A DNA stretch of 56,242 nt from Acidobacteriota bacterium (GTDB lineage Bacteria; Acidobacteriota; Vicinamibacteria; Vicinamibacterales; 2-12-FULL-66-21): positions 2,088-58,329 of the forward strand of contig QHWT01000051.1 of NCBI GenBank assembly GCA_003222675.1, given 5' to 3'. Under the pieces are notes generated by a model that worked only from the letters and a program-made list of their open reading frames with translations, had not been told where the DNA came from and did not search any database. A program made the translations under genes and the position numbers. Shown one piece after another: positions 43,543 to 46,973 of the stretch. The first letter of the stretch is position 1. Each line of letters opens with the position of its first letter.

Positions 43543-43570
43543 GGCTCATTACTCATGGCTCATGGCTCGG
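43543..43570. repeat. Short heptamer array (GGCTCAT type)
   Basis: Four units: ggctcat, tactcat, ggctcat, ggctcgg. It marks the boundary between the TPR gene and the methyltransferase module. The following 114 bases are more AT-rich and may hold the module's promoter, with TAATCT and TAGACT as candidate -10 boxes. Confidence 0.65.
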
Positions 43571-43684
43571 GGACGTTCGTGATCAGATATTCGCGCACGG
43601 GACCTCGGCTGGTCGCGCGCGAGTTGGTCATCGAACCGTGACCTAATCTGACACGAGCGTGAGGTAGACTGGTGCATCTCCCTG

Positions 43685-44482
43685 ATGCCTTCCGTTTCGC
43701 AGGAAAACGTGACACGACCGCCCTTGAAATGGGCGGGCGGCAAGCGATGGCAAGTGCCGCATATCCATCGGATTTGGGCGTCGCACTCGCACCGTCGCCT
43801 CGTTGAGCCGTTTTGCGGCGGACTCGCCGTCGCTCTCGGTCTGTCGCCCAAAACAGCGCTTCTGAATGACGCCAATCCTCACCTAATCCATTTCTACCAG
43901 TGGTTACAACGAGGGCTACGAACCGAGATTCGAATGGAGAACAGCGAGACGCTGTTCTACGAGTATCGTGACCGCTTCAATCAGTTGCTGAGGGACGGGC
44001 AGGCCGACAGCCCGGAAACCGCTGCGCTTTTTTACTTCCTAAATCGAACAGGCTTCAACGGACTGTGCCGGTTTAATCGACAGGGTGAATTCAACGTTCC
44101 GTTCGGTCGCTACTCTCGTATTGCGTACAGGTATGACTTCGCGCCGTACAGGGATGCGTTCAAAGAATGGACGTTCACGAACTCCGACGTTGAGTCAGTC
44201 CTTCTCGAGCGCAAAGACTTCGTTTACGCTGATCCTCCGTACGATGTTGAGTTCACGCAGTATTCGAAGGACGGATTCTCTTGGACGGACCAAGAACGCA
44301 CCGCGGTCTGGCTGTCACGTCACGCCGGACCGGTAGTTCTGGTCAATCAGGCGACGCATCGAATCGAGAAGCTGTACCGGAAACTTGGATACAGCGTCGG
44401 CTTCCTAGACGCGCCGCGTCGAATCAGTTGCACCGGAGATCGCACGCCTGCGCGGGAGATTGTGGCGACGCGAAACCTATGA
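43685..44482 (+). CDS. Dam/DpnM-type (D12 class) N6-adenine DNA methyltransferase
   Basis: A 265-residue alpha-class adenine methyltransferase. The SAM-binding motif I is PLKWAGGKRW (residues 13-22) with FCGG following, and the catalytic motif IV is DPPY (about residue 182). FNGLCRFNRQGEFNVPFG (about 121-138) matches the target-recognition hairpin conserved in Dam, DpnM and MboI-type enzymes, so GATC methylation is a fair guess. Base composition is visibly lower in GC than its neighbours. It overlaps the next gene by four bases (ATGA), implying a two-gene unit that arrived together. Confidence 0.9.
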   Translation: MPSVSQENVTRPPLKWAGGKRWQVPHIHRIWASHSHRRLVEPFCGGLAVALGLSPKTALLNDANPHLIHFYQWLQRGLRTEIRMENSETLFYEYRDRFNQLLRDGQADSPETAALFYFLNRTGFNGLCRFNRQGEFNVPFGRYSRIAYRYDFAPYRDAFKEWTFTNSDVESVLLERKDFVYADPPYDVEFTQYSKDGFSWTDQERTAVWLSRHAGPVVLVNQATHRIEKLYRKLGYSVGFLDAPRRISCTGDRTPAREIVATRNL

Positions 44483-44895
44483 CGCCACGGAATACCACTA
44501 CCGGAGGTGTCCTTGAAGCAATGATACTTCTGGCTTTGGATAGGGGAGGCTATCAATACGAGACGCAGGCGGTCGTTGGACTCAGATGCGGAGGCGGAAC
44601 GCATAAGGTCGACGCCGTCGCTCGACGGGCCGCGGATGTCATTCTCGTTTCATTGAAATGGCAACAAACAGGCGGCACCGCCGAGCAGAAAGTGCCGTTC
44701 GAGGTGATGTGCCTTGCCGACGCAGTACGCGGAGGGAAGGCTGACCGCGCATATCTCGTCTTGGGTGGAGACGGCTGGACACTACGCGACTATTACACCT
44801 CCGGTCAGCTATCAGAACATCTGCGACACGCCGCCCTGGTTCGCATCGTCACGCTAGAAGCGTTTATCCGGCTGGCCAACAACAGAGAGCTGTAG
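44479..44895 (+). CDS. Compact PD-(D/E)XK-like nuclease, probable restriction partner
   Basis: A 138-residue protein whose ATG overlaps the methyltransferase stop. A nuclease-like core is visible: helix (VLEAMILLALDRGG), strand with an aspartate D45 (THKVDAVARR), then strand VILVSLKWQQ with S58-x-K60, and glutamates E69 and E75 (GTAEQKVPFEV). This looks like D-x12-S-x-K-x14-E, reminiscent of the variant in Cfr10I/NgoMIV, where the acidic residue moved downstream of SxK. Pairing with a Dam-type methyltransferase suggests a type II restriction-modification system. Alternatives are a regulatory or repair nuclease. The family name is not known to me. Confidence 0.6.
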   Translation: MTPRNTTTGGVLEAMILLALDRGGYQYETQAVVGLRCGGGTHKVDAVARRAADVILVSLKWQQTGGTAEQKVPFEVMCLADAVRGGKADRAYLVLGGDGWTLRDYYTSGQLSEHLRHAALVRIVTLEAFIRLANNREL

Positions 44896-44984
44896 GCCAC
44901 GCGCCGTCTTTCGTTCACCCACGCAGCCTGGGCAGGAGCTGACGCTTCCCACCGGCCCACTTCAAGACCGGCCTGACCGCCGGC

Positions 44985-46973
44985 TCACCCATGATCGCTC
45001 GAATCCTCTTCGAAGAAGCGTTCGATCGCCCGGATATCGTGCGTCACCGGCGCGGGCGGCAGTGATGCCAGGAATCTCCTCCCATACCCCATCGTCCGCA
45101 GCCGCGGATCGAGGACCGCGAGGACGCCGCGATCCTGACGGTGGCGGATCAATCGGCCGAGCCCCTGCTGCAGCGCGAGAATCGCGAGCGGAATCTGGTA
45201 CTCGCCGAACGCGGATCCGCCGCGCGCGTTGATCGCCTCGATGCGGGCGGACGTAATCGGATCACCCGGCGACGCAAACGGCAGCTTGTCGATGATGACG
45301 CAGCTCAATGCCTCGCCGACGACGTCGACGCCCTGCCAGAAGCTGGAGGTGGCGAACAGCACCGCGTGCGGCGTGGCCTTGAATTCCCGCAGCAACGACG
45401 ATCGCGGCGCGGTGCCCTGCACGAGAATCGGGTACTCGAGCTCCGCCGATGCGACCTGGTGCACCTGCCGCAGATTGTTGTAGCTGGTGAAGAGCACGAA
45501 CGCCCGCCCGCGCGTCCGCTTCAGGATCTCGATCACCTCGCGCCCTGCGGACGCGACGAACTGCGGCGATCGCGGGTCGGGCATTTTCTTGGGGAGGTAG
45601 AGGATCGCCTGACGGCGATAATCGAACTCCGAGGCCAGCTTGATTTCGTGCGCGGCCTTGATGCCGAGCCGTCCGCGAACGTATTCGAACGATCCATCGG
45701 CGCTCAACGTCGCCGACGTCAGCACGGTCGCCTTCATGCGATCGAGCAGCAGCTCGCGAACGATCTCGGACACGTCGATCGGGGACCCGCGCAGGAAGAT
45801 CCCGCGTCCCCGGATCTCCAGGTAATAGACGAACCTCGGGTCGTCTGCCCGCGTAAGGAACTGAATATCCTTGCGGACTTCGCTGGCGCGGCGGCCGAGT
45901 GCGAGCACGTCCTCCGGCAGCTCCCTGGTGAGCGCGATTGTGGCTTCGACGGCTTCGAGCGCGTTGACGAGACCGCTTCTCTCGCGTGCCGCCCGTTCGA
46001 GCAGCGCCGGCGTGACGCGCACGCGGCTCTCGGCGCCGGCCCCGGCATCGAACCGGAGCATCTGCAGCGTGCCGAAGAACAGCCGCGCGTAGTCGCGCAC
46101 GTGCTCGATGTCGCCTTTCAAATCATCGGCGCGATCGGGATCCGGCACGAGGTTCGCCGCGATCGCACGATCGGTGTCACGCGCGAAATCATCGAGCCGA
46201 TAGTTACTTACTGAGATGCCGAAGTACTGAGTCGCCACGTCTTCGAGCTGGTGCGCTTCGTCGACGATCGCGTGCTCGCACGACGGAATCACCTCGCCGA
46301 AGCTGCTCTGGCGCACCGCTGCGTCCGCACACAGCAGATGATGATTGACGATGACGAGATCCGATTCGGCGGCGCGCTGCCGCATCCGCGTGACGAAGCA
46401 GTCGTTGAAGCGCGGGCACTCGCCGCCGAGGCAGTTCTCGCTCGTCGCGGAGATCTCCGGCCAGATCGCCAGGTCCTCCGGCAGGTCGTCCATCTCGGCG
46501 CGATCGCCGGTCTCGGTCTCCCGCGACCATTCGTCAATGGCGTCGATCGCGAGTGCGTCCTCGCGCGAGCGAATGGCGGGGCTGTCGCGCAGCGCGTCGA
46601 ATTTGTGCAGGCAGAGGTAATTGCCACGTCCTTTCATGTAGGTGGCGGTGAACGGTACGCCGAGCGTATCGCGCAGGACCGGAAGATCCTTGAAGAAGAT
46701 CTGTTCCTGCAGGTTCTTGGTGCCCGTCGAGATGAGGACGCGCTGGCGGCTGAGGATCGCGGGAATCAGGTAGGCGAGGGTCTTGCCGGTGCCGGTGCCC
46801 GCCTGCGCGAGGAGGACACCGCCGTCGGCGAAGACGTCGGTCACAGCGGCCGCCATTTCGAGTTGCGCCGGACGCGCTTCGAAGCCGTCGAGCGCCGTCG
46901 CCAGCGCGCCACCTGGCGCGAACACCGCATCGACGGCCGCGTGCAGGGCCGCTCCGTCGGAGCCGGCGATCAC
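44985..46973 (-). CDS. dinG: ATP-dependent DNA helicase, DinG/YoaA-like (XPD family)
   Basis: Superfamily 2 iron-sulfur helicase of 662 residues that unwinds structured DNA and R-loops. Walker A is [13 protein letters not shown] (about residue 60); four cysteines for the iron-sulfur cluster are seen in YLCLHK and [15 protein letters not shown]; the DEAH box is VDEAHQ (about 234). Motif VI is near the C-terminus ([15 protein letters not shown]). The start chosen is GTG at 46973, overlapping the glyA stop (GTGA); an in-frame GTG at 47003 lies inside glyA. Confidence 0.92.

Follow-up and report, generated by a model that had tools for sequence, protein, structure and literature searches.

The window, a stretch of 56,242 nucleotides of an Acidobacteriota genome (contig QHWT01000051.1) that was analyzed as a whole, contains the genes of a DNA methyltransferase and a small putative nuclease on the same strand (Table 1). 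Both open reading frames were found where the sequence-only reading had placed them, and the start of the nuclease gene overlaps the stop codon of the methyltransferase gene in the sequence ATGA. The pair had also been described as AT-rich relative to its neighbors, and the base composition bears this out. The GC contents of the methyltransferase and nuclease genes are 0.563 and 0.578, respectively, compared with 0.611–0.679 across ten neighboring genes, and the deficit of both genes is greatest at third codon positions (0.643 and 0.604, compared with 0.754–0.841). A search of the entire genome (7.16 Mb) gave one copy of the nuclease and a single D12 methyltransferase match. Around the pair, no promoter-like or terminator-like site scored above shuffled sequences. 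CTAG is strongly under-represented in the window (0.35 over positions 1–56242), in a sample of its own genome (0.32), and in two related genomes (0.25 and 0.27).

Table 1. Features of the locus and of the cyanophage proteins discussed in the text. Residue counts refer to the 94-sequence alignment, which was collected with patterns holding S58 or E75; L numbers denote fetched loci.
Feature	Position	Strand	Remarks
C-terminal remnant (..NSRATSRGPVREYLITNVPEP, stop) of resident D12 methyltransferase gene	43560..43629	-	about 21 codons
Inserted or substituted cassette	43630..44920	+	extent inferred from the end of homology to the resident gene; junctions within about 10 bases
Dam-family (D12) N6-adenine DNA methyltransferase	43685..44482	+	265 aa, ATG to TGA
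PD-(D/E)XK nuclease (PF20472 PDDEXK_11), predicted restriction endonuclease	44479..44895	+	138 aa, ATG to TAG
Codon of D45, predicted catalytic Asp	44611..44613	+	identical in 94/94
Codons S58-L59-K60, half-motif with Ser for the usual acid	44650..44658	+	S 93/94, K60 94/94
Codon of E75, predicted relocated metal-binding Glu	44701..44703	+	identical in 94/94
N-terminal remnant of the same resident methyltransferase gene	44918..44992	-	25 codons
Cyanophage 198-aa 'hypothetical' proteins	L208:2882-3478, L210:16818-17411, L209:34775-35365		phrog_15364 for the first two

The description of the surroundings as unrelated housekeeping genes needs correction, because the pair lies within what is left of a resident methyltransferase gene, whose two ends survive on either side. 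The C-terminal remnant was recognized from DNA matches to L161, L162, L164, L165, and L178 and from protein likeness to L164 and L179, and the N-terminal remnant adjoins the 3′ end of a dinG/yoaA-type helicase gene. The cassette between them is about 1.29 kb, scarcely more than its two genes, and is opposite in direction to the remnants. The longest pair of direct repeats across it is 21 nt at 71%, which we do not regard as a sign of transposition. In 18 related genomes, the helicase gene could be located by its 3′ end. Seven of them, including the same-genus genome G001, have a different D12 methyltransferase gene between the helicase gene and a TPR gene, co-directional with the helicase; the proteins score 76–94 bits against the window methyltransferase, and the gene of L168 is in two pieces. 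The TPR gene is present without a D12 methyltransferase in nine genomes, and neither is clear in two. We regard the resident methyltransferase as solitary because most of the related loci have no room for a nuclease gene of such size. The remnants on both flanks, with the cassette reversed between them, indicate that the incoming methyltransferase–nuclease pair took the place of the resident methyltransferase. As read from this gene order, the cassette would have entered in reverse orientation by replacing the middle of the resident Dam-like gene, between the helicase and TPR-protein genes.

The methyltransferase is a member of the Dam family. It matched TIGR00571 (dam) with an E value of 1e-51 and 176 bits, above the curated cut-off of 114.85, and PF02086 with an E value of 2.4e-40 in a Pfam scan, and its KWAGGK, NGLCRFN, and DPPY motifs are all intact. 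The best PDB match in a sequence search was the DpnII methyltransferase (2dpm, E 4.5e-28). In alignment it is identical to E. coli Dam over the stretches NGLCR and GEFNVPFGRY, which we take to contain DNA-contacting residues. PADLOC gave "orphan methyltransferase" as its best model (4e-71), followed by type II (5e-55), which counts against a restriction-modification reading.

The 138-residue protein was assigned to PF20472 (PDDEXK_11) with 35.8 bits and an E value of 7.9e-9, above the curated cut-off of 23.7, and this was the sole Pfam match at E ≤ 1. It also matched phrog_6124 (E 6e-19), and NCBIfam and PADLOC gave no match at E ≤ 1. The nuclease had been called possibly undescribed; its domain family, however, already stands in Pfam. 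Among the papers searched, none contained the words PDDEXK_11 or PF20472, and none was found on a "smallest restriction endonuclease"; such pairs may be present in REBASE as putative systems. A PDB sequence search with the protein gave only matches with E values of 0.23 and 0.93, and a search with the nuclease profile gave AF1548 alone (E 0.31), with its IECK aligned to the ISLK of the nuclease.

A structure was predicted from the window nuclease and 93 relatives, with a mean pLDDT of 92.6 and a pTM of 0.88. The order of elements in the model is helix, three strands, helix, and strand, which matches the PD-(D/E)XK core; the fold that had been proposed from the sequence is thus confidently predicted. 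Foldseek gave nine matches at E ≤ 0.001, namely AF1548, R2 retrotransposon proteins, and Can2 nucleases. Structural alignment with VIA-align gave AF1548 (Z 10.1, 3.7 Å, 116 residues aligned), BstEII (Z 9.9, 3.4 Å, 131), Upx (Z 9.7, 3.3 Å, 120), XisH-type proteins (Z 9.4 and 9.1, 3.2 Å, 115 and 114), BamHI (Z 8.3, 4.7 Å, 114), Hjc (Z 8.1, 3.4 Å, 100), BsoBI (Z 8.1, 3.4 Å, 129), and PspGI (Z 7.7, 3.4 Å, 122). MutH was absent from the fold matches listed by the two programs. In the model, the PD-(D/E)XK fold class is clear but the nearest relative is not, since no single enzyme stands out.

The gene pair recurs in other genomes. Profile searches gave PF20472 matches in 9 of 60 genomes (relatives and the own genome), in 18 of 396 genomes of the phylum (own included), and in none of 14 named control genomes. 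A protein search found the nuclease in 11 of the 396 phylum genomes (own included), and its close relatives are 56–77% identical. The profile searches of relatives and phylum together yielded 20 distinct loci, at 19 of which a methyltransferase gene adjoins that of the nuclease (D12 in 16, N6_N4-type in 3); the remaining one, L015, lies at a contig edge. The three N6_N4-type neighbors carry the motif DPAYESLEKHR, and one of them was confirmed by Pfam. When the species genomes of the GTDB collection were scanned, 122 relatives came up, of which 80 were kept; their titles name Acidobacteria, Cyanobacteria, Chloroflexi, Deltaproteobacteria, Firmicutes, archaea, and others. A D12 methyltransferase lies within 400 bases of the nuclease in 66 of the 80 (62 upstream and 4 downstream), and an N6_N4 methyltransferase lies beside it in another seven (six by Pfam, and L105 by likeness to L103). 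No methyltransferase was seen at the other seven loci (L044, L067, L076, L081, L106, L109, and L115) by a search with the window methyltransferase and inspection of reading frames of at least 130 aa; the Pfam scan there covered one neighbor each in L067 and L106, and the upstream sequence of L081 and L106 extends over 300 bases or fewer. Among cyanobacteria, PF20472 matches were found in 25 of 292 genomes, and a methyltransferase motif was present within the fetched stretch at all 25 loci. Some loci are shared between these search sets (for example, L010/L025/L039, L011/L026/L047, and L013/L113), and the sets were not summed.

The small gene therefore mostly stands beside DNA methyltransferase genes (73 of 80), and the pairing is not due to chance. 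The neighboring methyltransferases belong to three Pfam families, namely D12, N6_N4, and phage Dam (PF05869). The nuclease gene may precede or follow that of the methyltransferase, depending on the relative, and the pairing thus outlasts rearrangement. In 13 of the 25 cyanobacterial family hits (L134–L146), nucleases with E-C-K and a Dam-type methyltransferase are encoded tail to tail, and these pairs are likely to be another restriction-modification type. Two further arrangements were observed. Contig MEDJ01000006.1 carries two copies of the pair about 47 kb apart (L036 and L040), and the nuclease relative at L067:4001-5135, one of those with no methyltransferase seen, has a DndB-like gene after it (PF14072, slightly below the cut-off).

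Two features of type II restriction-modification are present at the locus: a DNA methyltransferase gene adjoins a nuclease gene, and the nuclease has a predicted restriction-enzyme fold. The recurrent pairing and the confident PD-(D/E)XK fold support the earlier proposal of a compact type II system. We put the probability that the pair is such a minimal restriction-modification cassette at about 0.8; the pairing and the predicted fold are shown directly, and catalysis is inferred. The Dam-family enzyme would methylate adenine in a short palindrome of the host DNA, most likely GATC. The 138-residue enzyme would cut unmethylated copies of this site, presumably as a homodimer in the manner of other small type IIP enzymes.

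The target can be approached through cyanophages. Of the phage records, 39 carry the nuclease, each under the name S-RIM50, S-RIM12, ACG-2014b, or ACG-2014g, and a Dam-type gene directly precedes it in the three records that were opened. The passages of PMC10665884 on cyanophage genes mention a Dam gene and no paired nuclease. When viral contigs were scanned for close relatives with the window protein as the single query, no relative of the nuclease was found, and plasmids gave none either. Thirteen viral contigs carry the nuclease; a methyltransferase of the phage Dam type is nearby in nine, and two (L127 and L128) show no methyltransferase in the fetched stretch. Three of the 13 (L119, L121, and L126) are equal in size to phage records already counted. 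In L116, a PF05869 phage Dam lies beside the small nuclease, and L117 has the same length; both have a GATC ratio of 0.56 over 6.4 kb.

Another 25 phage records (S-RIM8, S-RS29, S-IOM18, S-CAM7, and others) encode a protein of 198 aa instead of the nuclease, and none of the 39 and 25 records has both. In S-RIM8 and S-RS29, its gene directly follows a Dam gene whose product is 77% and 82% identical, respectively, to ACG-2014b Dam, and in S-CAM7 it is apart from the Dam gene, whose product is 60% identical. Pfam and PDB sequence searches did not recognize the 198-aa protein, and one of the 25 records names it MutH. Its predicted structure (pLDDT 79.8) matches MutH (Z 12.8, 4.5 Å, 182 residues) and Sau3AI (Z 11.3, 3.7 Å, 166); the next family is MvaI (Z 5.2, 6.0 Å, 149). 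MutH and Sau3AI act at GATC.

The observed/expected ratios of GATC in 50-kb pieces were 0.19, 0.39, 0.54, and 0.61 in phages with the nuclease and 0.11, 0.22, and 0.68 in those with the MutH-like protein. The ratios in seven non-carrier phages, which appear in neither list of carrier records, were 0.73, 0.81, 0.86, 0.86, 0.93, 0.93, and 0.95; one of these phages, S-PM2, has a short gene annotated as Dam. The seven carriers (0.11–0.68) do not overlap the seven non-carriers (0.73–0.95), but the exact one-sided p value of 0.0003 overstates the evidence because the phages are related within groups and the controls were picked after 8 kb of S-RIM50 had shown a first depletion. S-CAM7, in which both genes were found, belongs to the carriers in this test and was placed with the non-carriers in an earlier comparison of 16 palindromic tetramers, where GATC had the lowest p value (0.0024) and AGCT, ATAT, and CTAG were also under 0.05. 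In the 13 short viral pieces (4.5–6.4 kb), the ratio was 0.00–0.79, and the least depleted carriers were L127 (0.79), L118 (0.74), and L120 (0.68).

Because the sampled carriers of either kind are depleted in GATC, this tetramer is the likely target, and together with the exchange for a MutH/Sau3AI-like protein the depletion makes GATC the probable site of the window pair as well. However, the phage nucleases are only 31–34% identical to the window nuclease, so the target may differ. A true restriction-modification pair with a target other than GATC is the strongest of the alternatives, although we consider it rather unlikely. Some Dam-family enzymes have targets other than GATC, some relatives of the nuclease pair with N6_N4 methyltransferases, and GATC is not depleted in the bacterial host (0.98), which a protecting methyltransferase would also allow. 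The cyanophage evidence stands against another target, as does the identity of the window methyltransferase to E. coli Dam over the two stretches given above.

The same phage exchange could be read differently, with the nuclease as a methyl-directed nickase, functionally analogous to MutH, that works alongside Dam during mismatch repair or replication. A MutH-fold protein does take the place of the nuclease beside related cyanophage Dam genes, and the Dam of S-RIM50 is annotated as "methyl-directed repair". However, the distribution of the nuclease in the phylum is patchy (the 11 of 396 genomes above), its partners are drawn from three methyltransferase families, the cassette sits inside another methyltransferase gene, and the phage protein matches Sau3AI, a restriction enzyme, nearly as well as MutH. 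Such a role is therefore improbable.

A serine at position 58, where the acid of the (D/E)XK motif is expected, could mean that the pair is decaying and that the nuclease is already inactive. In the 94-sequence alignment, which was drawn from a genome scan with peptide patterns holding S58 or E75 and is biased for one of the two, D45, K60, Q62, E69, K71, and E75 are invariant, and position 58 is Ser in 93 sequences. A pattern fixed across a clade is not decay; moreover, the gene is open, with close relatives at 56–77% identity, and inactivation by loss of the acid is slightly less probable still than a nickase. Less credible than any of these is a stray nuclease gene that lies beside an orphan methyltransferase by chance, given the methyltransferases at 73 of 80 loci and the single D12 match in 7.16 Mb of the own genome, although 5 of the 80 relatives have upstream room and show none.

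The invariant residues suggest another arrangement of the active site. In the predicted structure, E75 lies within a helix (residues 67–84) after the strand of K60. D45 and K60 would form the site with E75 from this helix, which would replace the (D/E) two residues before the Lys and give the order PD..K..E. In the sister branch of PF20472, positions 58–60 are E-x-K, and position 75 is Leu, Ala, Thr, Lys, or Val. The E-branch rows of an earlier table had been picked by an ECK pattern; hence, positions 58 and 75 were tabulated in 50 distinct hits from searches with the family profile or a protein, which are free of selection for S58 or E75. The combinations were S/E in 18, E/non-acid in 29, E/E in 1, and E/gap in 2. 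Both E/gap hits fall below the Pfam cut-off, five of the 29 E/non-acid rows (E/Lys, L153–L157) are poorly aligned, with Val in the D45 column and a family match over about 20 positions, and L147, also among the 50, is from a broken gene. The E/E hit, which falls within the S branch, comes from an archaeal copy (L129/L042, contig MEZD01000012.1, titled Bathyarchaeota) that is broken by an internal TGA and has both E58 and E75. In a tree of sequences that share less than 90% identity (74 S and 21 E), the S branch forms one clade (ultrafast bootstrap 97) with columns 58 and 75 removed. At the level of sequence, the predicted catalytic glutamate has probably moved from the strand (position 58) to the next helix (E75) in the branch of the window nuclease.

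A wider picture, which we advance tentatively and at somewhat less than even odds, is that the nuclease represents an undescribed but widespread family of GATC restriction enzymes, very small at about 138 residues, within which the glutamate moved once. In T4-like marine cyanophages, it would be one of two GATC nucleases that can stand in for each other next to a phage Dam; the phages would cut the DNA of hosts or rival phages with it and purge GATC from their own genomes. If true, both a Pfam domain and a family of cyanophage genes now annotated as "hypothetical" would gain a function, and the near-absence of GATC in some marine phages would become testable. The family would add a compact restriction enzyme, possibly useful as a reagent, and would offer a natural example in which a catalytic residue has moved within a single family, where both states exist and the split is well supported.

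A MutH/Sau3AI-like protein fills the place of the nuclease beside related phage Dam genes, but MutH and Sau3AI are larger than the window nuclease, which the Pfam scan assigned to PF20472 only. The likeness to DpnII/MboI proposed from the sequence holds for the methyltransferase, which is nearest to that of DpnII in the PDB, and for GATC as the probable target. It does not hold for the nuclease, which was not recognized as that type at the profile level (PF20472 alone in Pfam, none in NCBIfam) and is about half the size of the DpnII/MboI nucleases. The DpnII system has two methyltransferases, and the window system has one.

The PD..K..E order predicted here has precedents. According to the passages of PMC551604 and PMC6344858 on these enzymes, the acid has moved while the Lys stays in Cfr10I, NgoMIV, Ecl18kI, PspGI, and others. 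The fold matches of the modeled nuclease include PspGI and Ecl18kI, although the PDB sequence search with the nuclease profile found none of the four named enzymes. We do not claim membership in the Cfr10I/NgoMIV (CCGG) family. The R-(D/E)R recognition motif, described in PMC6344858 as conserved near the catalytic Lys, was looked for between K60 and L79, and the consensus has no Arg there. The predicted nucleases of COG1395 (PAB2104) are described in part of PMC1189080, where the acid is predicted to have moved to the helix after the Lys strand, as is predicted for the window nuclease; they are a different family, and no methyltransferase partner is mentioned in that part. By score, the window nuclease is a member of PF20472 and phrog_6124, the former described as a nuclease domain and the latter as of unknown function. 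Unlike Cfr10I and NgoMIV, it has a sister branch that keeps ExK: its own branch combines S-x-K with the helix Glu, whereas the other tabulated PF20472 members have E-x-K and, where aligned, no acid at the helix position.
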